Source: Fulvivirga imtechensis AK7 (GTDB taxonomy: Bacteria > Bacteroidota > Bacteroidia > Cytophagales > Cyclobacteriaceae). Taken from it: a DNA stretch of 51,149 nt. Below the pieces are notes generated by a model. It was not told where the DNA came from, made no database searches, and saw only the letters and a list, made by a program, of their open reading frames with translations. Position numbers and translations under genes: made by a program. Of the stretch, positions 4,450 to 21,691 are shown in pieces; position 1 is the stretch's first letter; each line of letters opens with the position of its first letter. The stretch covers positions 1 to 51,149 of the forward strand of contig NZ_AMZN01000089.1 of assembly GCF_000331535.1 (NCBI RefSeq). The letters are read 5' to 3'.

Positions 4450-5610
4450 TTGAACAGGCTTATTTTATTCATATCATTTTATTTATTCTTTTCCTCATGC
4501 AGCATCAGCCAGCCGGAAGATCCTCAGTTGCTACTGACAGGAGCAGAGCAAACGAATGAATATTTGCCTATGTTAAAGGGTAAGAAAATAGGTATGGTGG
4601 TGAACCACACTTCTGTGATAGGAAAAACTCACCTGGTGGATTCGCTCCTCAGTCTTGACATAAGAATTCAGAAAGTATTCGCCCCGGAGCATGGCTTTAG
4701 AGGTGATGCCGATGCCGGAGAAAAAGTGAAAGATGGAATAGATATAGCCACGCAATTGCCCATTATTTCTCTTTATGGCAATAACAAAAAACCCTCAGTG
4801 GAGCAGCTTCAGGGAATCGATCTGGTGATCTTCGATATCCAGGATGTTGGCACCAGGTTCTATACCTATATCAGCACTATGCATTATGTAATGGAAGCTT
4901 GCGCGGAAAATGATATTAAAATGCTCATCCTCGACAGACCTAACCCCAATGGCATGTATGTGGATGGTCCCGTGTTAAAACCCGAATTCCAGTCTTTCGT
5001 AGGATTACACCCGATACCAATCCTGCATGGATTGACAGTGGGTGAACTCGCTCAGATGATCAACGGAGAAGGATGGTTAAATAATAGCATCAAGTGTGAT
5101 TTGAAGGTCATCCCTGTTAAGAATTACAGCCATGATGAAGATTATTCGCTACCGGTAAAACCCTCTCCTAACTTACCCAATGGCCTGTCTGTAAAAATGT
5201 ACCCTTCGCTGTGTCTTTTCGAAGGCACCGTGATCAGTGTTGGTAGGGGCACTTACAAACCCTTTCAACAGATCGGTCATCCGCAGTTTACAGATATGGC
5301 ACACCAGTTTACTCCGAAAAGCATCGATGGCATGTCCAAATATCCGCCTTATGAAGGGCAAACCTGCTACGGGATTAGTTTTGAGGATACCGATTTCGAA
5401 GGAGGATTCACGCTGAAATACATCATTGACTTCTACAAAAAGTATGGGGGGGAGGATTACTTCAATAACTTTTTTGACAAACTGGCTGGTACTGATCAAT
5501 TAAAACAGCAGATTAAGAAAGGAATATCTGAAGAAGAGATCAGAAAAAGCTGGGCACCGGACCTGGAGCAGTATCGAAAGATGCGGGAGAAGTACCTTTT
5601 GTATGAATGA
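4450..5610 (+). CDS. DUF1343 / NamZ-type exo-beta-N-acetylmuramidase, lipoprotein
   Basis: 386 residues. The DUF1343 family includes NamZ, which removes N-acetylmuramic acid from the non-reducing ends of peptidoglycan fragments. Family signatures are present: KIGMVVNHTS near residue 45, KVFAPEHGFRGDADAGE near 75-90 (with the conserved Glu-His), FDIQDVGTRFYTY and RPNPNG. The N-terminus is a lipoprotein signal ending in FFSSC, so the protein is membrane anchored on the outside of the inner membrane. The start codon is TTG at 4450, the only start in frame ahead of the signal peptide. It stands alone on the plus strand. Its likely substrate fits the peptidoglycan-related locus at 8.5-20.4 kb. Confidence 0.9.
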   Translation: MNRLILFISFYLFFSSCSISQPEDPQLLLTGAEQTNEYLPMLKGKKIGMVVNHTSVIGKTHLVDSLLSLDIRIQKVFAPEHGFRGDADAGEKVKDGIDIATQLPIISLYGNNKKPSVEQLQGIDLVIFDIQDVGTRFYTYISTMHYVMEACAENDIKMLILDRPNPNGMYVDGPVLKPEFQSFVGLHPIPILHGLTVGELAQMINGEGWLNNSIKCDLKVIPVKNYSHDEDYSLPVKPSPNLPNGLSVKMYPSLCLFEGTVISVGRGTYKPFQQIGHPQFTDMAHQFTPKSIDGMSKYPPYEGQTCYGISFEDTDFEGGFTLKYIIDFYKKYGGEDYFNNFFDKLAGTDQLKQQIKKGISEEEIRKSWAPDLEQYRKMREKYLLYE

Positions 5611-8506: not shown

Positions 8507-9598
8507 CTACAGGGTGCCTCCCGAAACCTGCTGAAGCAATTCGACTCCCAATCCCGGTTTATCGGTCACCGACATCCATCCATCTTTGATCTGAAATCCA
8601 CCTGAAACAGCATCTACCACCAAGTCCAGGCTACCGTCAAGGTCGAGATATTTGGTGTTGCTGAAGCAAAGTGCGGTGTGTAACGCAGCAGAGATACTCA
8701 CGGCACTCTCGTCATTACAGCCCCACATCAGGTCGGTACCGGAAACATCAGCTATCATAGCTATCTGACGTCCGGGGTAAATGCCTCCCGACTTCATGAG
8801 CTTGATATTGAAAATACCGCTCGCTCCGGGCGGTGAAGCCAGTGTAAAAGCATCTTTGGGTGAAAGCAGGCTTTCATCAGCGGCAATAATGGCTTTTATC
8901 GGATCAGGAAGTTGTTTGAGAAGCTGTATATCCATAGCTGGAGTAGGCTGCTCTATCAGTTCTATATCAAGTTTTCCAGTTTTGTCGTAAAATTTCTTCA
9001 GCGCAGCCACATCATATCCCTGGTTGGCATCGACACGTACGATCATCTGGTTTCCATAGACCTCACGAAGTTTGACCATACGTTCTATGTCTTCATCGAC
9101 ATCTTTTCCTGTCTTCACTTTCAACACTCGGAAACCCATTTCATAATATTCCTGTGCTTCCTTCAGCGTGTCCTCCACATTCTTGATCCCGATGGTCACT
9201 GAAGTGGCCATGCTCCTGATCTTCTGTCCTAAAAACATAGCCAAAGGTACGCCCAGGTGCTTGGTGAATGCATCATGAATAGCTATGTCCAATGCTGCTC
9301 TTGCAGCCGGTGTTTTAGGAAAATTTCGCACCACCTCGTCCAACAAGCCATAAAATTCCCGAATATCCCGCCCTATGAGAAACTCCAGATTTTCCTCTGA
9401 AAGCGTATTTAGTGTATCATCTAACGACTCCCCCACTACCTGCTGACTGGGATTTCCTGCTCCGAGGCCAAAAGTACTATTTTCAAGATTCAGCTTTACA
9501 AACACACAATCCACATCATCTACCGTTTTGAAGGCAATGGTATAGGGTCTGGTATTGCCCAGGTTCATCCTCCAAACCTCTATCGACTCTATTTTCAT
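8507..9598 (-). CDS. Dipeptide epimerase (enolase superfamily; L-Ala-D/L-Glu epimerase-like)
   Basis: 363 residues, a full-length muconate-lactonizing subgroup protein. Catalytic and metal residues are at family positions: K160-x-K162 (first base), D190, E216 and D241 (Mg2+), K266 (second base), and D319-L-D321, the DxD pair that in L-Ala-D/L-Glu epimerases holds the substrate ammonium group. The known role of such enzymes is to convert L-Ala-D-Glu from peptidoglycan into L-Ala-L-Glu for peptidases. The partner upstream is a DUF1611 protein; in marine bacteria DUF1611 (DgcN) with an enolase-family racemase (DgcA) converts D-Glu through N-acetyl-Glu, so that is an alternative. The DxD pair favours a dipeptide substrate. 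Cytoplasmic. Confidence 0.88.
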   Translation of the reverse strand: MKIESIEVWRMNLGNTRPYTIAFKTVDDVDCVFVKLNLENSTFGLGAGNPSQQVVGESLDDTLNTLSEENLEFLIGRDIREFYGLLDEVVRNFPKTPAARAALDIAIHDAFTKHLGVPLAMFLGQKIRSMATSVTIGIKNVEDTLKEAQEYYEMGFRVLKVKTGKDVDEDIERMVKLREVYGNQMIVRVDANQGYDVAALKKFYDKTGKLDIELIEQPTPAMDIQLLKQLPDPIKAIIAADESLLSPKDAFTLASPPGASGIFNIKLMKSGGIYPGRQIAMIADVSGTDLMWGCNDESAVSISAALHTALCFSNTKYLDLDGSLDLVVDAVSGGFQIKDGWMSVTDKPGLGVELLQQVSGGTL

Positions 9599-9601
9599 AT
9601 T

Positions 9602-9702
9602 ATATAATTTTTAGTATTGAGTCCCGAATCCCCAGTATCGAGTGTCGTAGTCTTGAGTTCCTTCGAAAATCTTTACTCTATACTCAGGACTAGAGACTAA
9701 AT
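9602..9702. repeat. Degenerate direct/inverted repeat cluster
   Basis: Contains several imperfect copies of words such as TATTGAGTCCC, CAGTATCGAGT, GTCTTGAGT and, inverted, ACTCTATACTCAGGACTAGAGACTAA. These are the same word family as the inverted repeat at 8394-8505. It fills the 113-nt gap between the DUF1611 gene and the epimerase gene. Confidence 0.5.
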
Positions 9703-9711
9703 GACTCTTAT

Positions 9712-10803
9712 TCATGCTTTTACTAATCGTTGTTTAATCAATTCCACAAGACCGCTTACCCCATCTTCCATAGGACATATCACCGGCAGTCGGCTTCTCT
9801 TCATAATGTCCGCCCGGCTGTCTTCAATTTGCTGTGTAGACATTTTAGAAGTATTCAGTGTAATTGCCCAAGTATCTGCACCCAGTAATTTGATGATCTC
9901 CTTGTCCTTAAGCACATCAGGAATGGTAGCCGGAAAACTTTCCAGGTTATTGTATCGCTCGCGCACCGGATGGTGCTGAAGAATAACACCATCCAATCTT
10001 CCGGAAATGATGAACTCCGAACCGCAAGGCCCTCCGGGGTTGAGCAGGCTGGCCTGTCCTTCAACCAGGATCACCTCAGGCTTTTCATTTTCCCAGCAGC
10101 TATGGATAGCATGCTCGATCTCACCTGGAATAAAATCATTAGGCGTGGCGTCAAAGATAAATCCATATTTAGAGCCCTGCAGCCATCCGGTCTGGCCGGT
10201 AAAGATCATCTCAGCCTTTACCCCAGCCTCGTTGAGAGCATTGGTGAGCAATCTGGCCGTTGTTCTCTTACCCATCGAGCAATCTGTACCTAAGACACCG
10301 ATCTTCAGACAATCCACTTCCAAAATTTTACCCTTCCAGAAATGAAGATCATTAAAGGCTTTGGGCTTTCGGATATCATAAATGAGAACATCATTTTTTA
10401 TGGCCAGGGCCTGTAGTTCTTCAATATCAGATAGCGGCTGGTGCAGCCCATTGACAATGCTCATCCCCGCTTCAAGAGCATCTTTAACTACCGGGTAGAG
10501 GCTCTCTGGCAGCCTGCCGCCTTTTGTAGCCATGCCTATAACTGCATACTTTGGCCTATCACCAACTTTATTAAGCAGTTCCTGAATGGATGCCACGACA
10601 GGAATATTCCGCGCTTTTCCATCCACCACTTTTCCTGCATCCTGCCCTGCCAGCTTATCATCGATCACTCCCAGTATATCAAATCGTTTTGACTCGCGGA
10701 TCAGTCCATGAGCCGTTTTGGCATGGATGGTTTCCAGGAGACCCCCGGTTATTATGCAGGCAGTTCCTCCCAACTGCTGATCTGCAACTTGTAGATCTAT
10801 CAT
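9712..10803 (-). CDS. DUF1611 family protein (DgcN-like, candidate D-Glu/dipeptide N-acyltransferase)
   Basis: 363 residues with the two-part DUF1611 organisation: an N-terminal Rossmann-like part (residues 1-145) and a C-terminal P-loop-like part beginning near residue 165 with GVLGTDCSMGKRTTARLL. Further conserved stretches are FTGQTGW, EVILVEGQASLLNPGG and ILQHHP. No signal peptide, so cytoplasmic. One characterised member, DgcN, acts on D-glutamate before an enolase-family racemase. The adjacent downstream gene here is such an enolase-family epimerase, so the pair probably handles the D-Glu centre of cell-wall peptides. It starts with ATG 13 nt after the carboxypeptidase stop, indicating co-transcription. 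Substrate assignment is inference. Confidence 0.85.
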   Translation of the reverse strand: MIDLQVADQQLGGTACIITGGLLETIHAKTAHGLIRESKRFDILGVIDDKLAGQDAGKVVDGKARNIPVVASIQELLNKVGDRPKYAVIGMATKGGRLPESLYPVVKDALEAGMSIVNGLHQPLSDIEELQALAIKNDVLIYDIRKPKAFNDLHFWKGKILEVDCLKIGVLGTDCSMGKRTTARLLTNALNEAGVKAEMIFTGQTGWLQGSKYGFIFDATPNDFIPGEIEHAIHSCWENEKPEVILVEGQASLLNPGGPCGSEFIISGRLDGVILQHHPVRERYNNLESFPATIPDVLKDKEIIKLLGADTWAITLNTSKMSTQQIEDSRADIMKRSRLPVICPMEDGVSGLVELIKQRLVKA

Positions 10804-10816
10804 ATCTTAACTTTTG

Positions 10817-13453
10817 TTATTCATCAAATAGTTCAATTACCCGGCCATTGATCACTGCGTATCTCACCACATCGCCTTTGCTTATCAGGAAATTCGCTTC
10901 CTGCCCAAGATCAGGTGCAACCAGAATATCCTGTGCTGCAGGCACGATGCTGATGGGTAATGTAGCACTGATCTTTGCGTCAGGTATTTGCTTCACCTTC
11001 ACCGCTGTATAGCCTGCCTGGAGCCACTCACGGGCACGTTCTTCTGTAATGGCGCTTACCTCTACCACAGGCGGATATATCTCACCCGGGATGATCTTCA
11101 TTCCACCGGCATCCAGTTCTTCATATCCGTAGAAGGTCGAGAGGTCACCCATATCGTCAATGGAGCTTTGGTGGTAGGTCTCACCTTCTTGTGTTCTTTC
11201 GGAGTTAAATATTCCGATGTCCATTGTGTAGTACTTTCCGTTTCTAAAAACCTGTCCGTTGCGAACCAATAGATCATAAAACTTTCTGTCATTCTCAGGG
11301 ATCCGGTAATAAGCATTTAGCGGCATGTTTTGGTACCTGCTTTCAGCGATCTCACTCAGCGCATGCAGGATGGCTACAAAATTCATTTTCACCAGCTCCT
11401 TTTTCTCCGGGTCTCCGGGGTATCCTCCGGATTCGATCAGGATTGTATTGGTACCCCATTTTTGCATGTTGTCACCAAAGGCACGTGGTTCGAAGGCATC
11501 ATCGTACCTGCCTATCCTTCCGGGAATGTATTCCTGGAGCACATCATTCATCGAAACGATCAGTTTCATGGCTTTACCCCGGCCTTCGTTCACTTCTTTT
11601 TCATAGTTGTAAGCCGGAGCTAAAAATGAAATTGACGCCGTTTTGCCGGTGCGGTAGGCATTGTAATGCTTGCTTTGGTCATGTAGATTAAAACCGAACT
11701 CAGGCTCGTATTTGTCCCGGGTTTCCTTCAATATCCGTGCTTCAGGGGAGATCAATCGTAATGCATCGCGGTTAAGGTCAATGGAAAGGGCATTCCGTCT
11801 TTTAAAAACCTCAGCACCATCAGGGTTGAGCATCGGGATGATATACAGTGTTGTTTCCTTAAGTATCTTATCTTTAAAAACATTTAAGGCATCATCAGAA
11901 GCAAGGAAGTTGAATATTTCAAACAATGCACGGGTAGCCGTAGATTCATCACCATGCATTTGCGACCATAGCAACACTTTAGTTGCGCCCTCTCCAGCTT
12001 TTACCAGATTGATCTCTCTACCTTCCACGGATTCTCCCAACTTAGACACTTCGAATCCTGGCAATGATTTGGATTTTTCGATAAATGGCTCGATATCCTT
12101 TCGTTTTATCCTTCTATAATCCAGGGCCGGGACGTGATAGTGTTGATAGTTTTGATAAAGGTTGGGGTGTAATGTTTCAGAAACCTTTAACACTTTGTCA
12201 TAATTCACCATAAATCGCGAAAAGTCAGGGTGAAATAGCCGCTTTCTGTTCAATTCATATTGATATATGAGCTGCCCCAGGTTTTTCATGAACGGGAAGG
12301 CCACCTGTTCGTACTCATACTGCCCGTCATTGTAAATTTCATTTTCATTAGTGTGAATGACTGCAGAAAGCATGAACTCCACTTTATTTTTGTTATCAAC
12401 GATATAAGCATTGTCGATCATGTAACCATATGCCTGACCTATTTTATTAAAAATTCGGATATGCTTTGGAATAGCCGCTTTGTCATTTCCATACATGAGG
12501 AATTTGCTATATGCATCATAATATTCTTCCGAAGGATATTGCGGCCAGGTCGTCTCCGAGGGCAACTGCGACATATACTGATAGAGAAACTGGTAATCTT
12601 CCTCTGTAAGGTCAAATGTGTGCTGTTGATCTTTGTATCCAGGAAACACAACTGCCCTGAGCATCAACTGCAACTCATCAAGCGGTATGAAGTTTTTATG
12701 AGTAAACTCCATGGGGCTTTCAACCAACTCTTCCCCACTGATGTAACCCTTGCCTTTTAGCACCTCGCCTTTTAGTGGCAGCGGATCAGGATTGCGAACC
12801 ATAAGCTGCTCATGAAGTGTAGAATCGCCTGCCACAAACCGCACAGGGTTGGTATGGCGGTTCTCCTCTTCATTCAGAAAAATGGACAGCCGGTGAATGA
12901 TCCTGGAATCGTCATAGCCCTTTGCTTTCAGTTTATTGTTGACCTCCTGCTGTCCAACGAACTCGTACAATCTGTTGTAGGCATCGTTGTCGCTAACGAT
13001 AAAAAGCTTTTTGATGTAGTGAGCAATGGCTGGCAAGCCTGTGGCTGCTGTAGAGTCCTTCAGAACGGCTGTTTGACCGGAGTAGGCACTATCCGTGAGC
13101 ATTGCAGCATATTTATCGACACCTGGCACCTTCATTTTATTCAGCTTCTCTAAAGCCATAAAAGCCACTGGCATTTTTACCGTACTGGCCGGGTAGAAAT
13201 ATCGATCAGGATCAAAATTGTAGTAAAAAGACTGAAAAGAAGGCGCATTGTTGCTATCCCGGTTGATCTGTGTATAGATGATCTGCACCTCATATTTGTC
13301 TTTATTCTTAAGGATATCCTGGAACTGATCGGGATGTGTTTTCATCAGGTTCTCCAGCAGGCTCTCATCTTCCTTTACCGACATCATTTCGGGGCTACAG
13401 TGTAATAATGTTAAACTCATAATGGTCCAGATCTTTGGCATCCAGTTCTTCAT
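10817..13453 (-). CDS. Lipoprotein fusing a class A serine hydrolase domain to an M14 zinc carboxypeptidase
   Basis: 878 residues from the ATG at 13453; the TTG ten codons further up has no signal-peptide rationale. The N-terminus is a lipoprotein signal (SLTLLHC). Residues about 50-400 form a beta-lactamase/penicillin-binding-like domain: STVK with Ser90, SDN at 154-156 and a KIG in place of KTG (NKIGQAYGYM). From about residue 430 an M14 carboxypeptidase follows: zinc motif MHGDES near 500, NPDGAEVF, DLNRD, NLHDQSKHYN and the catalytic Glu in LIESGGYPG. Either half could cut D-amino-acid-containing peptide stems, but substrates are not provable from sequence. It lies 171 nt after the amidase and 13 nt before the DUF1611 gene. 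Confidence 0.85.
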   Translation of the reverse strand: MKNWMPKIWTIMSLTLLHCSPEMMSVKEDESLLENLMKTHPDQFQDILKNKDKYEVQIIYTQINRDSNNAPSFQSFYYNFDPDRYFYPASTVKMPVAFMALEKLNKMKVPGVDKYAAMLTDSAYSGQTAVLKDSTAATGLPAIAHYIKKLFIVSDNDAYNRLYEFVGQQEVNNKLKAKGYDDSRIIHRLSIFLNEEENRHTNPVRFVAGDSTLHEQLMVRNPDPLPLKGEVLKGKGYISGEELVESPMEFTHKNFIPLDELQLMLRAVVFPGYKDQQHTFDLTEEDYQFLYQYMSQLPSETTWPQYPSEEYYDAYSKFLMYGNDKAAIPKHIRIFNKIGQAYGYMIDNAYIVDNKNKVEFMLSAVIHTNENEIYNDGQYEYEQVAFPFMKNLGQLIYQYELNRKRLFHPDFSRFMVNYDKVLKVSETLHPNLYQNYQHYHVPALDYRRIKRKDIEPFIEKSKSLPGFEVSKLGESVEGREINLVKAGEGATKVLLWSQMHGDESTATRALFEIFNFLASDDALNVFKDKILKETTLYIIPMLNPDGAEVFKRRNALSIDLNRDALRLISPEARILKETRDKYEPEFGFNLHDQSKHYNAYRTGKTASISFLAPAYNYEKEVNEGRGKAMKLIVSMNDVLQEYIPGRIGRYDDAFEPRAFGDNMQKWGTNTILIESGGYPGDPEKKELVKMNFVAILHALSEIAESRYQNMPLNAYYRIPENDRKFYDLLVRNGQVFRNGKYYTMDIGIFNSERTQEGETYHQSSIDDMGDLSTFYGYEELDAGGMKIIPGEIYPPVVEVSAITEERAREWLQAGYTAVKVKQIPDAKISATLPISIVPAAQDILVAPDLGQEANFLISKGDVVRYAVINGRVIELFDE

Positions 13454-13624
13454 TGTGCATTCATTTAGTATTGAAATGGACAAGCTCGAAAACCGAAGTC
13501 GGAAGTTGCATTACTCACGACTTCTCTTTTTTGCCTACCACTTTTGTCGACTACCGATTTCATCTTAGCCTGTCCGATCACTATCGTTGGAATAAGTTTA
13601 GAATGACTAAAGTTTATCCTCATA

Positions 13625-14299
13625 CTATTTTTCTCCAGGCGCTTTTTTCAATGCTTTATTTCCAATGGCTTCATGCAGCCGGTCGATAAATTCTTTTCCT
13701 ACATCATCTTTGTCCGTTAAATAGTCAGGATCCTTTTCTTTCCATAACTCATGACCGATGAAATTTTTGTATTGATCATGCCCGATAAGGTATTCGATAC
13801 TGTATTTTTTAATAAGGTAAGCAATAAGCGCCTTATTTGCTTCAAATTGTGCTTCGGTCAATGGATACTCATGGCCGTCCGCCACATTTTCAATGCCTAT
13901 AGCACAGTAGTTAAGACCTATTACGTGTCTCGCAAATGTTGTTTCCGGCAATAATTGATAGATAGTGCCGTCCCTATCCACTAGAAAATGTGCTGAAACA
14001 TTGAGGCTACCTGCACTTTGGATATCGGCTCTTGTACCGGGAAGAACCGGTGGATAAAACGCATCAAAAGACTGCTTCAGGTCGGGGTAGGCTGTCCAGT
14101 GTACGACTATTATCTTAGGGTCTATTTTGGCTGAGTCAAGCTCCATACCATATCGCTCCCGAATGTACTCCAAAGAAAGTCGTTCCCTTTCATGATTGTA
14201 AATGATAGGCTTTTGGACGATCCTGGGTTCAGACTGGCAAGCTATCAACAGGAAAACAGCCAGCCACTGTTTTTTAAAGTTCTGGCTGATCAACTTCAT
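13625..14299 (-). CDS. N-acetylmuramoyl-L-alanine amidase (Amidase_2), lipoprotein
   Basis: 224 residues. Cleaves the amide bond between MurNAc and L-Ala of the peptide stem, releasing peptides. Zinc ligands of the Amidase_2/PGRP fold are visible: His in IIVVHWTAYP near residue 68, His in LIGHDQYKN near 170, and Asp in KEKDPDYL near 190. The FLVDRDGTIYQL and NYCAIGIENV segments are also typical. The signal sequence ends in LLIAC, so it is a lipoprotein. The start ATG at 14299 overlaps the stop of the LD-carboxypeptidase by 4 nt (ATGA), showing tight co-translation. Confident in family; localisation is inferred from the lipobox. Confidence 0.92.
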   Translation of the reverse strand: MKLISQNFKKQWLAVFLLIACQSEPRIVQKPIIYNHERERLSLEYIRERYGMELDSAKIDPKIIVVHWTAYPDLKQSFDAFYPPVLPGTRADIQSAGSLNVSAHFLVDRDGTIYQLLPETTFARHVIGLNYCAIGIENVADGHEYPLTEAQFEANKALIAYLIKKYSIEYLIGHDQYKNFIGHELWKEKDPDYLTDKDDVGKEFIDRLHEAIGNKALKKAPGEK

Positions 14300-15354
14300 A
14301 TTACGGCTCCCTCCAGCAGTTTTATAGTTCCTTTGTCCGCATCAATTTGTGCCTTCAATCCTATAGGAACCGTAAATTTTTTCCCGATGTGCCCTATCAT
14401 GGCGCCGCTGTAGGCTGGGATCCCCAGTGGTTTGATGTAATGATCGATCACCTCCTCCAGTGTTAGTGAGCCGTAGCCGTCACCCGGATGACACCGGGTA
14501 CACCTGCCCATTACAAAGCCACTCAGTTCGTCAAATACTCCGGCCAGTTTAAGTTGCGACATCATTCTGTCCACAGCATATATCTTCTCCCCCACCTCCT
14601 CGAGGAATAGGATCTTATTCTTCCAGTCTGGAAGATAGCCTGACCCCACAAGACCCGCAAGCACAGACAGATTACCTCCAGCCAGCACCCCTAGAGCTTG
14701 ACCAGACGCAATCGTCCGTGTGCGGTTTTCAACCTGAACCAGTTCATCTTCACCCTTTGGTGGATTTTCCAGCAGTACGGGTCCTCCTTCAAAGAGTATT
14801 TTTTTGAAATATTCCGAAGAAAAAGTGTTCCATTCCGAGGTAGCCACCGGCCCATGAAAGGTAATGAGTCCCGTTTTGGCATAAATAGCCAATAAAAAAG
14901 CTGTAATATCGCTATAGCCTATGAAAATCTTCGGATGAGCAGCAATAGCCTTGTAATCTAACTTATCCAGTATCCTGGCAGCGCCTGATCCTCCCCTCAG
15001 GCAAACAATGGCTTTTACAGCATCATCTCTGAACATTTGATTGATCTCTTCGGCCCTGTCTTCATCCTTTCCCGCCAGATGTCCATACCTGTCGAATAAA
15101 TGCTTCCCCAGCTTCACCTCCAGGCCAAGCGCCTCAAGTATTTCTATAGCTACTTCATAGGGCTCGCTCTCATAAATAGCTCCTGACGGACTGATCAGCC
15201 CTACAGTATCCCCCTCTTGAAGCCTTGCCGGTTTAACGTGTTTAGCAAATTGGTCATTTCTTGACCAGCCAGGGGCATTTGCCCCTGCAAAAAACCACAA
15301 TGAAGCAGGCACCGCTGCCAATTGCTGAACAAACTTTCTTCTGGATGCAGACAT
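14296..15354 (-). CDS. LD-carboxypeptidase (peptidase S66), exported by a Tat-like signal
   Basis: 352 residues from the ATG at 15354; the start at 15393 would add 13 residues ahead of the signal. S66 enzymes remove the terminal D-Ala from the tetrapeptide stem. The nucleophile Ser is in CLRGGSGAAR near residue 103, the Glu in ILFLEEVGEKIYAVDRM, and the His in MIGHIGKKFTVPIG. Unlike cytoplasmic E. coli LdcA, this protein begins with SASRRKFVQQLAAVPASLWFF, a twin-arginine-like signal, so it should work in the periplasm. The gene is 79 nt after the small lipoprotein and overlaps the amidase start by 4 nt. Confidence 0.92.
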   Translation of the reverse strand: MSASRRKFVQQLAAVPASLWFFAGANAPGWSRNDQFAKHVKPARLQEGDTVGLISPSGAIYESEPYEVAIEILEALGLEVKLGKHLFDRYGHLAGKDEDRAEEINQMFRDDAVKAIVCLRGGSGAARILDKLDYKAIAAHPKIFIGYSDITAFLLAIYAKTGLITFHGPVATSEWNTFSSEYFKKILFEGGPVLLENPPKGEDELVQVENRTRTIASGQALGVLAGGNLSVLAGLVGSGYLPDWKNKILFLEEVGEKIYAVDRMMSQLKLAGVFDELSGFVMGRCTRCHPGDGYGSLTLEEVIDHYIKPLGIPAYSGAMIGHIGKKFTVPIGLKAQIDADKGTIKLLEGAVI

Positions 15355-15433
15355 TCTACAATTTAATGATGAAAAGGGAATTAAATTACGCATAGAGTAA
15401 ATTTAACCCCTTTTCTCTATCACACTCACTTAT

Positions 15434-15853
15434 TTATTGAACAGACAATTCAATTTTTTCAACCTGAGGAAACGCTTTAGCAGAGCGAAGCTCGACAAAG
15501 ATGGTAACCTTAGCACCAGCCGGTACAGTATAGTCGAAGGTCCGAACAACCTCCTCGTCTATTGGCGCATTATTTTCATCCATAGAACTGATCTCCGTTC
15601 GACTTCCACCGTCTATCCGCTGCAGGAAAGTCACTGACGCTATAGGATCTTCACTGTAGTTGACATAAGAAAGTGTGATCTCCACTGTCTCCCCCACTAC
15701 AGGATTATTATTGTCTACTGTAAAATCTACATTAGTGGCATAAGCTTCACCCACCACTGAGTGGCCAGGGAGAACGTCATTTTCATCACAGGCTATAATC
15801 GTTAGCAACATCCATGCTGCGATAAAGTATATTCTTTTATAGTTATTCATCAT
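15434..15853 (-). CDS. Small lipoprotein associated with SusCD
   Basis: 139 residues. A lipoprotein signal ends in LLTIIAC. The mature part resembles a single immunoglobulin-like beta-sandwich: FTVDNNNPVVGETVEITLSYVN, then YTVPAGAKVTIFVELRSA. No enzyme motif is seen. It sits 55 nt after susD, the position where Bacteroidota often encode an accessory surface lipoprotein (SusE/F-like), so a binding or scaffold role at the outer membrane is plausible. I do not recognise a named family. Confidence 0.8.
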   Translation of the reverse strand: MMNNYKRIYFIAAWMLLTIIACDENDVLPGHSVVGEAYATNVDFTVDNNNPVVGETVEITLSYVNYSEDPIASVTFLQRIDGGSRTEISSMDENNAPIDEEVVRTFDYTVPAGAKVTIFVELRSAKAFPQVEKIELSVQ

Positions 15854-15908
15854 TATTGAAAGTTTATTTTCATATTTCTGATCTCTGATTTCCGATTTAA
15901 TATTTCAA

Positions 15909-17333
15909 CTACTGGTCCCACCACAAGCGATCCAACAGCGTCACATCTGGCACATTCTGCCTGTTTCTTTGTGTTTCCGAATCAGGATAGATCAACCTGC
16001 GAATAAACTCTCCCCCCAATTCAGGGTTAAGATTAGCAGGTACAGTCATATCAGCATATTGGTAGTCAAACCTTCTGGCATCTACCCAGGTTTCAGGGTG
16101 CAAGAACATGGCGATGTACTTCTCCTTCAAAATCAGAGCACGTGTAAGCGAACCAGCGCCCACTGCTACTTGAGGATCAGTCAGATATACCTGAATATCA
16201 GCATTGTCTACACCAAGTTTTTCCATATGAGCCTCAATACCATCCAGGTATGACTGGTAAGCCCTGGCTGGATCACTGCTTAGCGCTGCTTCGGCTTCTA
16301 TGAACTTCAATTCAGCATAAGTTATTACCTCTATGGGCGATGTACGGCTGGAATAGTAAGTTCCCTCTACCAAAGTAGATCTAGCTCCTTGTTCCGGAGC
16401 ATCTCCCCGCCCTGCTCCATTCTCTGTTCCTATAAATTCACCCCCATTGGTAGTACCGAACATGAAAGACATCCTGGGGTCAACCACTCCATATGTGGTA
16501 CCATCCATGGCCTCTATCAACTGTTCCGATATCCATCCACCCAGTATCAGGCTGGCATTGCTAATGGCCACACTGGCCCAGGGGTTCACCTGCTCGGCAA
16601 AATAACTCACCGTTGCATCATCAGCATTACCGGTATAGCTACCCTCCACCTGATTGAGTATAGCAGTTGGATCGTAATCCCCCGTTTCACTCAAATGTAA
16701 CAGGTATCTCGCCTTTAATGCATGCGCTGTTTTAATCCAGAGGTCGATATCACCTTCGTAAATAAAGTCGTCATTCTCAACTTCATAAGAGAAGTTGCCA
16801 CTTTCCAGATCCTGAATGCCATCGTCCAGCAACTGTTGGATCACGTTGTAAAGTCCATGATCGGTGTCGTAGGCAGGTGTTAGCGTTTGGGCAAAAAAGG
16901 CTTCTGTATAGGGAATATCCCCCCAAAGATCAACCGTGATACCCAAATTAACAGCCTTTAATATCTTGGCTATACCGGCATAGTTAAATGCCTCCAACTC
17001 CTCGGCTTGTAGCTCCAGGTCGCTAAGGTCAGTCATTACATCGTATAGTTCAAACCAAGTCTGGTCAAAAGCCACTGGCTCCTGAGTGTCAGTAGCGCTC
17101 GCGGCATTAGGCGATGCCAGGTATTGTACATAATATGAAGTAATAAGTCCGGCATTTTGAATATTGTCACCGGTTTCGAAGCTTGTTCTGGCCAATAAAC
17201 CCGACAGCGGAGCCACAGACGGATTATTCGGATCCGTATTGATATCGAGATAGTCGTCACAACCCAGGGCGGTCAAAGCGACCATTGCCCAGGCTACAAA
17301 ATGTCTTTTATATGTTCTCTTTTCCATGGTCAT
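15909..17333 (-). CDS. SusD/RagB-family outer-membrane lipoprotein (SusD-like_2 type)
   Basis: 474 residues. SusD-like proteins cap the SusC barrel and capture the nutrient. Lipobox ALTALGC at the N-terminus, followed by DDYLDINTDPNNPS, the typical start of this group. It has the helical TPR-rich body and C-terminal signatures such as ILKEKYIAMFLHPETWVDARRFDY and FIRRLIYPDSE, which fit the SusD-like_2 subgroup. The start ATG at 17333 is 4 nt after the susC stop. Downstream genes for cell-wall peptide processing suggest the cargo is a peptide or muropeptide, not a glycan; that is inference. Confidence 0.94.
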   Translation of the reverse strand: MTMEKRTYKRHFVAWAMVALTALGCDDYLDINTDPNNPSVAPLSGLLARTSFETGDNIQNAGLITSYYVQYLASPNAASATDTQEPVAFDQTWFELYDVMTDLSDLELQAEELEAFNYAGIAKILKAVNLGITVDLWGDIPYTEAFFAQTLTPAYDTDHGLYNVIQQLLDDGIQDLESGNFSYEVENDDFIYEGDIDLWIKTAHALKARYLLHLSETGDYDPTAILNQVEGSYTGNADDATVSYFAEQVNPWASVAISNASLILGGWISEQLIEAMDGTTYGVVDPRMSFMFGTTNGGEFIGTENGAGRGDAPEQGARSTLVEGTYYSSRTSPIEVITYAELKFIEAEAALSSDPARAYQSYLDGIEAHMEKLGVDNADIQVYLTDPQVAVGAGSLTRALILKEKYIAMFLHPETWVDARRFDYQYADMTVPANLNPELGGEFIRRLIYPDSETQRNRQNVPDVTLLDRLWWDQ

Positions 17334-17337
17334 TGCT

Positions 17338-20300
17338 TTAAAGTGTTAGATTCAAAGTGAAGAAGTAACTTCTCACTCCCGGATAGCCCAGTCCGGTAAA
17401 TGCAGTAGCATTTCCTCCTGCCCCCGCACTAAATGATTCGGGATCATACCCGTTCCAGGGGGTGGATAAGATAATATTGTTGGCTGAAGCGGAAACATTT
17501 ACCCGCTGGAAAGGAGTTGAGGAAATGATAGATGCCGGTAAATCATAACCCAGCGTAACATTTCTTAATTTGATATAGGACGCATCCTGAACAAAGTTCT
17601 CAGATATTCCCCGGTAGGCATTCCTGTAAAATCCGGCCCCATAATCCACATAATCCGGACCCAACCCCTGTCCGAGCCATACCTGCTGTGTATTAGCCGA
17701 TCCATCCGCCAATCGACCATCAAAAATTACCATCTGATTCCTGTTGGTAGAGTAGTCAAGCATACCAAAGGCAGAATAGAAGTTATCATACTGACTGAAT
17801 TGGTCGACACCATATCGTGCATCAATCAAAAGTGACAGGCTCAGCCCTTTATAGGTAAAGGTGTTAGTCATGCCTGCAGTCCAATCCGGCATGGCATTAC
17901 CCAGAATCAGTTGATCACCATTTGCCACAGGAAAACCATCACTGCCTATCAACAGCGGCAGGTCTCTGTCAAGAATAGTTAAATCTTCGGGTTTGCCATT
18001 GGCATAATACCTTTCATAGCTTGTGCCATACAGGTTGCCATATGGATCGCCTTCGATCAGGGTCATAGTTACTGAACTACCAACATAGCCGAACTGGCTA
18101 CCCACCACAATGGATTCAATGCCTTCCCTGATATCTACCACAGTGTTTTTGTTTTTGGTGAAATTCAACCTAACATTCCAGGTAAAGGCGTCATTTCTAA
18201 TAGGAGTGCCGCTAAGCACCAGTTCAACGCCCTTATTCTCAAGCTCTCCGGCATTGGTGATTAATCGAGTAAAACCGGTTCCATTCGATACCGGAACGGG
18301 AATAATCTGATCTTTACTGTTGGACTTATACCAGGTAAGGTCTATTCCCAGTCGATTTTGCAGGAAGTTAGCTTCTAAGCCGAACTCTATTGATGTTGTT
18401 CTTTCTGGCTTAAGGTCTGCTGAACCCAAGGTATTTGACCGGGTATAACCTAATTCACCATTCAACGGAAAGCCATCTGCAGATGTGTATGTAATTGCTG
18501 TGGAGTAGGGCTGAGCATCTTTGCCAACCTCAGCATAAGACGCCCTAAGTTTGCTGTAGGAAACAAAGTCCGGCAAATTGAGCAATTCATCAAATACAAA
18601 TCCAAGGCTCACAGAAGGATAAAAGAATGATCTGTTTTCTTTTGGCAACGTTGAAGACCAGTCGTTTCTTCCTGTAATATTCAGGTAAAGGAAGTCGTCA
18701 TAGTTCAATGTCAGATCACCATAAACACCGACTAATCGCTGTTTTCGGATGATTTCCGAAGTAAGTTGTTCCGTTACATTGCTCAGGTGGTAAAACCTGG
18801 GGATAACGAATTCATTTCCTCTGGCTACAATAGTATTTCTATCACGGTCGAATACATCATGCCCCAGTCGCAATGAAGCTGAAAATCGTTCTGTAATATC
18901 TCTGCTTACCGTTAAATTCAAAGTAGAATTAATATCCCTGCTGTTGATCCTTGTCTGCTCAATAAATCCAGTACTGCTCAACGGAAATTCATTTTCAACA
19001 CCTAATGGTCCCGGCAAAATCTCCGTGCGCTGATCACTGTAATAATCCGATCCAAGTCTGTACATGATGTTCAGCCACTCCAATGGCTTGTAGTTAACAT
19101 TCACATTACCTATTATCCTATTGACATCATCTTCATAAGTCCAGTATCGCGCAGTATAGAGTGGATTGGAATTACCGTAAGTCTTCTGTGTACCATCTGG
19201 ATTGAGGTAATCGGTAGCATCTTGCGTAAATGCCCAGTACATCAGTGTTTCCATGATCCTGTCGTGAGGCACCCGGTCGCCACCTGATTTGGCATAGTTT
19301 ACCGACCCGGTGATGTCCAGTTTTTCATTGAGATTCACAGTACCGGAGAGCTTCACAGCAGTTCTGTCCCAGGTGCTGAATGGAATCACGCCTTCTTGCT
19401 GAAAATTTGAAACCGATGTAAAGAACGTAGCATTTTCGCTGCCTCCGGAGATACTTACATAGTTATCATATTGCTTCCCGGTTTGCATTACGCTTTTGGT
19501 GTTATCATAATACACATATTCCGGATCGATGATCCGACCTGCTGCTATAGGCGCTCCCCAGCTTGGCCAGAAACTATCATTGCTATAGTCTCCTGAAAAA
19601 CCTTGTCCGAATCCTTCCTGGAATTGGGGGTATTTATTGACCTCCTCAAAACCAATGGAGCTTTTGATATTCACCACCATTTTTCCTGCTTTCCCCTTTT
19701 TAGTAGTGATGATGACCGCTCCGTTAGCTGCTCGCACACCATAGAGGGCGGTAGCGGCAGCGCCTTTCAGAATGGATACAGACTCTACATCATTTGGATT
19801 GATATCCGCGGCCCTGTTACTCAGCCCCCGTGGTGTTCCATTCGATTCCACTGTTGAATTGTCGATGGGTACACCGTCCACCACAAAGAGCGGCTGGTTG
19901 TCAGCACCAGGATCAAGAGAGGTAAGCCCGCGGATGATGATCCGTGAGCTCATACCGGGCGCTCCTCCCGAGTTGGTGATCTGAACGCCTGCTACCTGTC
20001 CCTGCAGGGCGTTGACCAGATTGGCCTGTTTGGTTTTTGTTATATCATCGCTACTGACCTCTTCTACAGCATAACCCAAACCTCTTTTTTCCTGCTCAAT
20101 ACCAAAGGCTGTAACCACCACTTCATTGAGCTGGGTAATGTCCGGCTGTAATTGATAATCGATAACGCTCCGCCCCTGAACGGGCACTTCTACGGTTTCA
20201 TAACCTATAAAAGATATCATTAGAGTAGTAGCGCCTGATGACATCTCGATAGTATAATTACCGTCAACATCTGTAACTGTTCCCACTGTAGTGCCTTTTA

Positions 20301-20436
20301 CCACGACTGATGCTCCCGGCAAAGGATTCCCGTCTTCAGCGGTAATCTTTCCAGTAACAGTCTGCCCCTGGCCATAAGTGACATGGCAAGCGATACAGAC
20401 TATAACAAAGCTTAAAAGTGTAAAAATCTTCTTCAT
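17338..20436 (-). CDS. SusC/RagA-family TonB-linked outer-membrane transporter
   Basis: 1032 residues from the ATG at 20436 (MKKIFTLLSF, a signal peptide). Order of parts: signal 1-22, a carboxypeptidase-regulatory-like beta-sandwich (VTGKITAEDGNPLPGASVVVKGT) to about 110, TonB box region with NEVVVTAFG, plug domain with the SusC signature NPNDVESVSILKGAAATALYG near 220, then a 22-strand barrel ending in SYFFTLNLTL. It takes up nutrients driven by TonB-ExbBD. It is the first gene of the run to susD, the lipoprotein and the peptidoglycan enzymes. The upstream 230 nt carry 11-nt-phased repeats and face a divergent gene. Confidence 0.96.
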   Translation of the reverse strand: MKKIFTLLSFVIVCIACHVTYGQGQTVTGKITAEDGNPLPGASVVVKGTTVGTVTDVDGNYTIEMSSGATTLMISFIGYETVEVPVQGRSVIDYQLQPDITQLNEVVVTAFGIEQEKRGLGYAVEEVSSDDITKTKQANLVNALQGQVAGVQITNSGGAPGMSSRIIIRGLTSLDPGADNQPLFVVDGVPIDNSTVESNGTPRGLSNRAADINPNDVESVSILKGAAATALYGVRAANGAVIITTKKGKAGKMVVNIKSSIGFEEVNKYPQFQEGFGQGFSGDYSNDSFWPSWGAPIAAGRIIDPEYVYYDNTKSVMQTGKQYDNYVSISGGSENATFFTSVSNFQQEGVIPFSTWDRTAVKLSGTVNLNEKLDITGSVNYAKSGGDRVPHDRIMETLMYWAFTQDATDYLNPDGTQKTYGNSNPLYTARYWTYEDDVNRIIGNVNVNYKPLEWLNIMYRLGSDYYSDQRTEILPGPLGVENEFPLSSTGFIEQTRINSRDINSTLNLTVSRDITERFSASLRLGHDVFDRDRNTIVARGNEFVIPRFYHLSNVTEQLTSEIIRKQRLVGVYGDLTLNYDDFLYLNITGRNDWSSTLPKENRSFFYPSVSLGFVFDELLNLPDFVSYSKLRASYAEVGKDAQPYSTAITYTSADGFPLNGELGYTRSNTLGSADLKPERTTSIEFGLEANFLQNRLGIDLTWYKSNSKDQIIPVPVSNGTGFTRLITNAGELENKGVELVLSGTPIRNDAFTWNVRLNFTKNKNTVVDIREGIESIVVGSQFGYVGSSVTMTLIEGDPYGNLYGTSYERYYANGKPEDLTILDRDLPLLIGSDGFPVANGDQLILGNAMPDWTAGMTNTFTYKGLSLSLLIDARYGVDQFSQYDNFYSAFGMLDYSTNRNQMVIFDGRLADGSANTQQVWLGQGLGPDYVDYGAGFYRNAYRGISENFVQDASYIKLRNVTLGYDLPASIISSTPFQRVNVSASANNIILSTPWNGYDPESFSAGAGGNATAFTGLGYPGVRSYFFTLNLTL

Positions 20437-20558
20437 ATAGTATTGGTTGGTTGACCGTGACATATTTAACAGGGGCAGACTGGAATTAAAAACGGTCAGA
20501 TCTTATTTATAGAAATTCATAACTTACTGACAACAAAATCGTTAACTCTATTAAGCGT

Positions 20559-20617
20559 GTCAAATCCTGGTCAAATCATTGGAATAACCATTGACGAACC
20601 TTTGACGAACCTTTGAT
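20559..20617. promoter_or_regulatory. Array of 11-nt-phased repeats between susC and the divergent gene
   Basis: On the plus strand GTCAAATC occurs at 20559 and 20570, and TTGACGAACCT at 20591 and 20602 with a third partial TTGAT at 20613. All spacings within each set are exactly 11 nt, and the two sets face each other. On the minus strand the same region reads as five consecutive 11-nt units (AAAGGTTCGTC twice, then diverged units). This phasing suggests a multi-site operator bound on one face of the helix. The start of susC is about 120 nt away and that of the divergent gene about 50 nt. Confidence 0.55.
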
Positions 20618-20668
20618 ATCCACTGAAATAGCAGTAAGTTTCTATAAATTTCTGTCACCAAAACCAAC

Positions 20669-21691
20669 ATGATCCCAAAGAAAATACGTACGGAAATCGA
20701 AAATTCCTCAGTGATTACCAACATCATAGGCATTAAAAGTACAGCACATGATTGGCAAAATTTTACCCGCACCACCTTTGAAAGGATAGCCAGAAGGATC
20801 AACCAGGAAGTGACCAGAAAAGTGATTGATGCCCCTTTTCTGGTGAAAGATTTCCTCTTGTTCGGTGAGCACGAATTTGATAACATCCTGTTCAAATACA
20901 AACTGAAGAACATCGAAGACTTTATTGAGCACCTGAAAGGCATGAACCACCAAAAGCCGTACAGTTGGATCAGTGGAAAAACGCTACAGGGCTACTGGAA
21001 TGGAGGCGATGCAAAAGATAAAAAGCTTAACGTACTGCTCACCTTCCTCGGGGTCAACCTTCAGGATTGGGATGATTGGAAAAACCACAGAGAAGAATCT
21101 GTAAACCCCGCTACAAATGCTTCTTCAAATAAACTGAATGATACTCTTTGGCTGCTGAGAAAGCACTTCGTTGGCCACTATTACCGTTATTACCAAAAAA
21201 CAGATAACAGCCCTGTTCTCATCAAAACACCTTTTATCATCAGAGAGGACCCCAAAGACATAGTGGTGGTGGAGACGAAGACCATGGGGCACCAGTACAA
21301 AAGCGCCTATATGATCATCAGAAATGGTGCGTTGTACATTGAGTGTGAAAATATGGACTGGAACGAAAAGGAAAGCTATATTTTTAACATTGGCTTTGAA
21401 ACCAATGCGCAGGTGATGATCGGGGTGTCCAATACCCTGAACCGAAAAGGCCAGGCCATCGCTATTAAAAATGTGCTTGTAAAACAAAATCAGCCTTTCG
21501 ACTACCATACAATGTCGGGCGTAGAGGTCCCCTTTGAGCACCGGTTTGATCCATCTTCCGAAGAAGCCAGGGTGGTATCATTTTTTAAAAATGGCAGCAA
21601 TATTATTACTACACCTTACTGTTATACTCTGGAGGAGTTGAGTTCGCTAGCGAGTGATAAGACCAGCGGTGTGTTTGAGGGTAAAACTTAA
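20669..21691 (+). CDS. Unknown protein with a Bacteroidota helical N-terminal module; possible regulator
   Basis: 340 residues, no signal peptide or membrane segment. Residues about 95-138 (SGKTLQGYWNGG... LNVLLTFLGV..WDDWK) match a helix-turn-helix-like module I know from many Bacteroidota proteins, where it reads SxxTLxRxWGY, then STLNVLARFLGYxxWxxF. Residues about 170-330 look like an all-beta domain with KSAYMIIRNGALYIECENMDW and EHRFDPSSEEARVVSFF. I cannot name the C-terminal domain. The gene is divergent from susC and faces an array of phased repeats, which makes a regulatory role for the locus plausible but unproven. The ATG at 20669 is the first start; a longer frame is blocked. Confidence 0.7.
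   Translation: MIPKKIRTEIENSSVITNIIGIKSTAHDWQNFTRTTFERIARRINQEVTRKVIDAPFLVKDFLLFGEHEFDNILFKYKLKNIEDFIEHLKGMNHQKPYSWISGKTLQGYWNGGDAKDKKLNVLLTFLGVNLQDWDDWKNHREESVNPATNASSNKLNDTLWLLRKHFVGHYYRYYQKTDNSPVLIKTPFIIREDPKDIVVVETKTMGHQYKSAYMIIRNGALYIECENMDWNEKESYIFNIGFETNAQVMIGVSNTLNRKGQAIAIKNVLVKQNQPFDYHTMSGVEVPFEHRFDPSSEEARVVSFFKNGSNIITTPYCYTLEELSSLASDKTSGVFEGKT

Follow-up and report, generated by a model that had tools for sequence, protein, structure and literature searches.

The window analysed here is contig NZ_AMZN01000089.1 (C89; 51,149 nt in full) from the genome of Fulvivirga imtechensis AK7 (G000), which spans 6.7 Mb and is 98% complete. Our subject is a run of eight closely spaced open reading frames (ORFs) on its minus strand, from susC down to an epimerase gene, together with an uncharacterised gene and a tandem repeat on the other side of susC. 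For the eight genes, an original prediction made from the sequence alone had proposed the scavenging of cell-wall peptides. The features are as follows:

17338..20463, minus strand: susC, TonB-dependent outer-membrane transporter (TIGR04056, 715 bits; Shimodaira-Hasegawa-like approximate likelihood ratio test, SH-aLRT, 99 for its clade)
15909..17333, minus strand: susD, SusD-like_2 lipoprotein (PF12771, E 1.7e-53)
15434..15853, minus strand: small lipoprotein of 139 aa, no family (0 Pfam families)
14296..15393, minus strand: S66 peptidase with a start resembling a twin-arginine translocation (Tat) signal (PF02016 and PF17676, N and C parts)
13625..14299, minus strand: Amidase_2 lipoprotein of the N-acetylmuramoyl-L-alanine amidase family (PF01510, E 3e-23)
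10817..13483, minus strand: lipoprotein in which a Beta-lactamase2-family serine hydrolase is fused to an M14 metallocarboxypeptidase (PF13354, PF00246; motifs)
9712..10803, minus strand: DUF1611 protein, DgcN-like (PF07755 and PF17396, N and C parts; P-loop)
8507..9598, minus strand: enolase-superfamily epimerase, dipeptide-epimerase-like (PF13378 and PF02746, MR_MLE N and C parts)
20669..21691, plus strand: divergent uncharacterised gene, 340 aa, candidate regulator (divergent from a susC-type gene in 9/9 distinct loci)
20559..20576, plus strand: tandem repeat GTCAAAT-N4-GTCAAAT with a period of 11 bases, candidate operator (sole exact GTCARATNNNNGTCARAT match in the genome)

The ORFs from 20463 down to 8507 bear out the eight same-strand genes of the original prediction, and the families it named agree with the Pfam and NCBIfam models (TIGR04056 for SusC) used for assignment here, the small protein being without a family. 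From susC to the epimerase, the longest ORFs leave gaps of 4, 55, 40, -4, 141, 13 and 113 nt; five of the predicted values were the same, and the other two (79 and 171 nt) hold only with later starts, at Met14 of S66 and Met11 of the serine hydrolase-M14 gene. Lipobox-like cysteines, like the Tat-like start judged by eye, are present in SusD, the small protein, the amidase and the hydrolase-M14 protein. With a TIGR04056 SusC adjoining a SusD-family lipoprotein, this is a SusCD locus; the Pfam and NCBIfam models detected no carbohydrate-active enzyme among the eight genes, so it does not count as a polysaccharide utilisation locus. The whole genome holds one match to DUF1611, two to S66 and one to NamZ. 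The DgcN-like nature of the DUF1611 protein, and thus of the pair it forms with the epimerase, and the divergent protein with its repeat are new here, having been missed by the original prediction.

The DUF1611 protein carries a P-loop (G-T-D-C-S-M-G-K-R-T-T at 172), and the sole NCBIfam model that it matches is that of DgcN (NF041892; 140.2 bits, below the cut-off of 480). Its best solved relative is 2g0t, with 7xrj, which we take to be DgcN, ranking third. The epimerase has all the residues that had been predicted (K160, K162, D190, E216, D241, K266, D319 and D321), that is, the two catalytic lysines, three metal ligands and D-x-D expected of a dipeptide epimerase. Their description as dipeptide-type is too specific, since annotated DgcA proteins share the whole set; D-x-D occurs in two proteins annotated as DgcA (N-acetyl-D-Glu racemase), so that we no longer take it to prove that the substrate is a dipeptide. 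The top NCBIfam models for the epimerase include L-Ala-D/L-Glu epimerase (NF041118, 202.5 bits against a cut-off of 500; NF011708, 86.5 against 343), muconate cycloisomerase and DgcA (NF042940, 130.4 against 400), each below its cut-off. Overall, it scores higher with dipeptide epimerases than with DgcA, and its best solved relatives are 3rit and 3ro6, the dipeptide epimerase of Methylococcus capsulatus.

Both known systems that this pair recalls match it in part. DgcN-DgcA is described, in the available parts of two papers, as a route from D-Glu to L-Glu (PMC10845958, PMC12363236). There, too, a DUF1611 protein adjoins an enolase-superfamily racemase, with D-x-D and catalytic lysines common to both; unlike them, the proteins of our locus reach 140 of 480 bits (DgcN) and 130 of 400 bits (DgcA), and the window operon has no LysR gene, whereas two plasmid examples have one just upstream. 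With the L-Ala-D/L-Glu epimerases of murein recycling (YcjG, YkfB), the window epimerase shares catalytic lysines, metal ligands, D-x-D and wall-peptide hydrolases as neighbours, the latter as described for those enzymes in the accessible part of PMC5808125. It departs from them in having K24 where the Bacillus subtilis enzyme has R in the alignment, and in scoring 353 bits with the M. capsulatus enzyme (3rit) versus 182 with that of B. subtilis. From these likenesses, DUF1611 and the epimerase probably turn bacterial D-glutamate into usable L-glutamate. We prefer action on L-Ala-D-Glu, because the corresponding locus of one congener (G332) keeps susC-susD-lipoprotein-epimerase without DUF1611; that the pair acts on N-acyl-D-Glu, by analogy with DgcN-DgcA, is the less preferred alternative.

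The exported enzymes carry recognisable features of their families. S66 begins with S-R-R-K-F at 17, Tat-like by eye, and has candidate Ser, Glu and His residues in GYSD (159), EEVGE (265) and GHIGKK (334); it satisfies the Pfam S66 models and stays below the cut-off of the muramoyltetrapeptide carboxypeptidase model (NF008424; 179.6 bits, cut-off 378). Likewise, the amidase satisfies Pfam Amidase_2, scores 32.1 bits against the AmpD model NF008758 (cut-off 143) and matches solved amidases at a best E of 5.7e-8, the others being weaker. The fusion protein has S-T-V-K at 100 and S-D-N at 164 in its serine hydrolase part and H-G-D-E at 510 in M14, whose predicted structure resembles carboxypeptidase folds (predicted local distance difference test, pLDDT, 73). 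A likeness of M14 to a murein peptide amidase was looked for and did not show among the best 50 structural matches, which are carboxypeptidases of other kinds. The two halves fused in the window are separate genes just upstream of DUF1611 in L046, L048 and L052, and also in L053. For the small lipoprotein, a label applies in the window and L005 only (45% identical), with the lipoproteins of L076 and L003 aligning at 24 and 26%; C-D-E-N-D after its lipobox suggests export to the surface.

Taken by itself, S66 has the profile of an ordinary exported wall enzyme in this order, because 39 of its loci are without SusCD, 13 are near S13 and Tat-like starts are common. Relatives occur in 67 of 291 order genomes, including those of the window and the congener G036; from the remaining 65, 40 loci were fetched and 39 anchored. 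Among these, an S13 gene lies within three genes in 13/39 and a [RK]R-x-[FLW] start is found in 34/39, and the seven SusC labels nearby belong to proteins of 296 to 801 aa (35 to 109 bits).

The case for peptidoglycan rests to a large part on the company that DUF1611 keeps in relatives. DUF1611 is present in 25 of 60 genomes of the window's own family and, in a phylum sample of 296 genomes, scores above the cut-off in 58; a single-sequence scan of genome contigs with the window's DUF1611 returned six loci only. In the same-family sample we read 26 DUF1611 loci, of which 22 have the epimerase and four are pairless (L039 to L041 and L056); a fragment at the end of a contig (G008:C126) and two weak matches (G032:C14, G046:C204) were left out. 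With hydrolase families picked after the loci had been seen, and loci ending at contig edges (L062, L063) scored as misses, a labelled cell-wall-type hydrolase lies within four genes on either side of DUF1611 in 16/22 DUF1611-epimerase loci (window included) and in 17/26 loci once the pairless ones are counted, all 17 having one on the strand of DUF1611. The background is 0/211 windows (20 arbitrary stretches from eight same-family genomes), and it is not clean, because 9/22 far windows in S66-centred loci hold such a gene; this figure comes from a first estimate on few positions, later replaced, which gave 0/7 in DUF1611 loci. More specifically, L047 and L055 have NamZ and GH3-beta-lactamase genes directly after the epimerase; S13 adjoins the pair in L051 and L058, and in L054 a small ORF separates it from the pair. 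In the phylum sample, 51 places were read (two of them in same-family genomes), 8 without a DUF1611 label in the gene calls, and of the 43 counted, 31 have an epimerase within four genes and only 6 a labelled cell-wall gene; M55 and M28 peptidases adjoin the pair in L116 and L115, in families outside the count. As judged from gene neighbourhoods, the peptidoglycan link is thus good in the window's own family and weak across the phylum sample; overall, the scavenging proposal is partly supported.

DUF1611 also occurs with other partners. On plasmids of Phaeobacter and Vibrio lentus it is paired with an annotated alanine/ornithine racemase dependent on pyridoxal phosphate (PLP), another chemistry, and homologues of that racemase, 39 to 49% identical, are found in three same-family loci (L039 to L041). 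One of these, L041:3097-6831, is on a short contig that carries DUF1611 twice, next to the racemase homologue. The partners of DUF1611 thus include racemases of two unrelated types. In L092, L100 and L102, from other Bacteroidota, DUF1611 and the epimerase are accompanied by an enzyme of the PALP family and a long protein of the creatininase family (confirmed by Pfam for L092), company that suggests another D-amino-acid pathway.

SusCD stands beside the epimerase in five loci: the window, L003 (Agaribacillus aureus), L005 (a Bacteroidia metagenome-assembled genome), L059 (congener G036) and L076 (congener G332). Identity of the window proteins to their counterparts there ranges from 36 to 78%, with gene order retained. 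In the two congeners, the same flanking genes, for an Lhr helicase and a phosphoesterase, enclose differing cargo, namely susC-susD-S66-DUF1611-epimerase in G036 and susC-susD-lipoprotein-epimerase in G332. G009 (L057, the same place as L004) has only a remnant, in which a 5' part of susC (L057:8915-9193) and a short stretch resembling the 3' part of S66 precede the hydrolase-M14 gene, as if the importer part had decayed and the enzyme genes been retained.

The history of the importer appears to differ from that of the neighbouring genes. The SusC proteins of the five loci form one clade (SH-aLRT 99) against 15 sampled paralogs, which are the best hits from five genomes and include none from those of L003 and L005. 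Inside this clade, the window SusC pairs with L005 (67% identity versus 43% to the congeners), as does SusD (66% versus 36%), and both reject a clade of window plus congeners, that is, of the genus (approximately unbiased test, p-AU 4.1e-6 and 4.0e-6), a clade named for the test after the identities had been seen. A concatenation of the divergent protein, DUF1611 and epimerase, on the other hand, places window and congeners together (94/93, not starred) and weakly rejects window plus L005 (p 0.03); the epimerase tree alone does not reject the latter two as sisters (p 0.18). Because of these last two values, exchange of the SusC-SusD-lipoprotein module between lineages is likely rather than certain, with old divergence followed by loss as the less preferred alternative.

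The divergent gene has no Pfam match; relatives were found in 5/390 order genomes (single-sequence search) and 2/395 phylum genomes (profile), the window's genome being in both counts. In each of the nine distinct loci (window, L003, L005, L057, L059, L076, L078, L079 and L208), the gene from which it diverges is of the susC type; this susC-type gene is a fragment in L057, and L208 was read to the stretch end only. L078 and L079 contain a different SusCD locus, followed in L078 by amine oxidase, class-III aminotransferase and GNAT genes. The predicted structure has a helical N-terminal part and a beta-barrel C-terminal part (pLDDT 77, predicted template modelling score 0.51); Foldseek returned one match at E <= 0.001, a designed protein, and then weak lipocalin-like ones. 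We regard it as a candidate regulator that may bind DNA. Besides, the C-terminal part alone (positions 167-326) is matched at 39 bits by G000:C116:11598-12071 (L209). Next to the divergent gene, L076 has a thioredoxin-like gene (1063-1359, by eye) with F-F-S-S-I-A-G-S-G where its counterpart in congener L059 (6026-6322) has F-F-A-S-W-C-G-P-C; the L076 protein is apparently inactive.

The intergenic stretch contains GTCARATNNNNGTCARAT in 6/9 distinct loci and in 3/5 SusCD-epimerase loci. Searched exactly in six whole genomes, it occurs once each in G000, G009, G201 and G376, always in this intergenic stretch; G036 and G332 lack it and show degenerate half-sites at the locus; a reversed control pattern had no match in the six. 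As the pattern was derived from these loci, the evidence lies in its genome-wide uniqueness and not in its presence. The 11-base period corresponds roughly to one helical turn of DNA. A sigma-70 scan gave 16 sites versus 25.1 expected by chance and is uninformative for this phylum. Besides GTCARAT-N4-GTCARAT, 20464-20668 contains two copies of TTGACGAACC at a distance of 11 bases, a further tandem repeat that is absent from the stretches of six relatives used for comparison. Closer to susC lies a single GTCAGATC, which has lookalikes in relatives.

The original prediction had also drawn in a NamZ-like gene at 4450. The gene (4450-5610) is genuine and the sole NamZ match in the genome; as an operon member we excluded it, since it lies on the opposite strand with formyltransferase and phosphoesterase genes in between, and the stretches read beyond the epimerase in G036 (4 kb) and G332 (11 kb) show no NamZ. 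In G000, the AmpG-type permease model TIGR00901 finds no match (5 of 14 control genomes had one, 2 of them above the cut-off), which fits entry of peptides rather than of anhydromuropeptides.

On balance, we lean towards a locus for the utilisation of peptidoglycan-derived peptides by uptake, periplasmic trimming and inversion of D-Glu. SusCD and the small surface lipoprotein would take up wall fragments; in the periplasm, the amidase would cleave N-acetylmuramic acid from the peptide, and the S66 and M14 carboxypeptidases with the serine hydrolase would trim the latter. A peptide permease encoded elsewhere may then carry short peptides into the cytoplasm, where the epimerase with the DgcN-like DUF1611 protein would invert D-Glu for ordinary peptidases and L-Glu metabolism. 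The divergent gene and tandem repeat would likely form the local switch of the locus. The fuller version, of a dedicated peptidoglycan-peptide locus with a TonB-powered, exchangeable SusCD, an unnamed one-component regulator (helical DNA-binding part and lipocalin-like sensor barrel) and a single tandem operator in the genome, is possible, if doubtful. The scavenging idea thus stands as the best of several readings, with more independent support, in the window's own family, than it had before and a narrower link to SusCD than had been foreseen.

Several observations weigh against it. A SusC of at least 850 aa with a SusD stands beside the epimerase in 5/59 epimerase-labelled loci among the 81 read, which is not an unbiased rate because L003 and L005 were found through DUF1611 likeness and L076 through the divergent gene, and no SusD label lies within eight genes of S66 in the 39 anchored loci of other genomes. 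Enzymes without a linked susCD, named in the original prediction as the refuting case, were thus found in most relatives read, and the predicted linkage survives in G036, G332, L003 and L005. The third congener, G323, gave no match to the S66 relative or the divergent gene at the limits used, and none of the eight genes encodes an inner-membrane transporter. To these come the late choice of hydrolase families, the imperfect background and the low phylum count described above. Finally, the closest solved relatives of S66 are MccF, M14 has the appearance of a general metallocarboxypeptidase, and the M. capsulatus enzyme presumably acts on cationic dipeptides.

These last points would also suit a general importer and degrader of peptides that contain D-amino acids or are otherwise protected (e.g. 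non-ribosomal or microcin-like), given an M14 fold that is general, an epimerase closest to a dipeptide epimerase other than the L-Ala-D/L-Glu one, a SusD-like_2 protein whose ligand is putative, and DUF1611 keeping other company elsewhere in the phylum, such as the PALP and creatininase-family genes of L092. We hold this unlikely in view of the Amidase_2 gene in the operon and of the NamZ, GH3-beta-lactamase, S13 or M15 genes that neighbour this pair in relatives. Recovery or remodelling of the cell's own wall, with exported enzymes trimming its peptidoglycan and SusCD merely regaining lost pieces, would agree with the housekeeping-like distribution of S66 and seems more improbable still, as in two congeners the cargo of the operon varies while its flanks are conserved, and SusC and SusD seem to have been exchanged between lineages, unlike housekeeping genes. 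That SusCD and the enzymes are chance neighbours with different substrates, as linkage confined to five loci and one remnant might suggest, is the least probable, with gene order retained in five loci despite 36 to 78% identity, gaps of -4 to 141 nt, the divergent gene in 5/5 loci and the exact repeat in 3/5.

The importer resembles SusCD/RagAB peptide importers in its TonB-dependent SusC and SusD-like_2 lipoprotein (BT_2263 chains are among the matches, at 44 bits) and differs from them in its linkage to wall-peptide enzyme families. Tannerella forsythia is likewise a member of the Bacteroidota that takes up wall fragments, yet its muropeptide scavenging, according to the available parts of PMC5388701 and PMC7670621, uses the inner-membrane permease AmpG, whose model finds no match in G000; "TonB" is absent from the main text of both papers, and "SusC" appears there solely inside "susceptibility". 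A review, in 12 of its 14 matching places, names inner-membrane importers for wall fragments and SusCD-like systems for polysaccharides (PMC13209645), and a SusCD importer for muropeptides features in no title among the literature matches listed. Peptidoglycan, as stated in the accessible part of PMC10845958, counts as an important component of the ocean's refractory organic matter. How scraps of it pass the outer membrane in Bacteroidota is not settled in the literature searched, and the locus names a candidate importer for this step, together with a pair for the disposal of D-Glu and a possible regulator, for which a single site is predicted.

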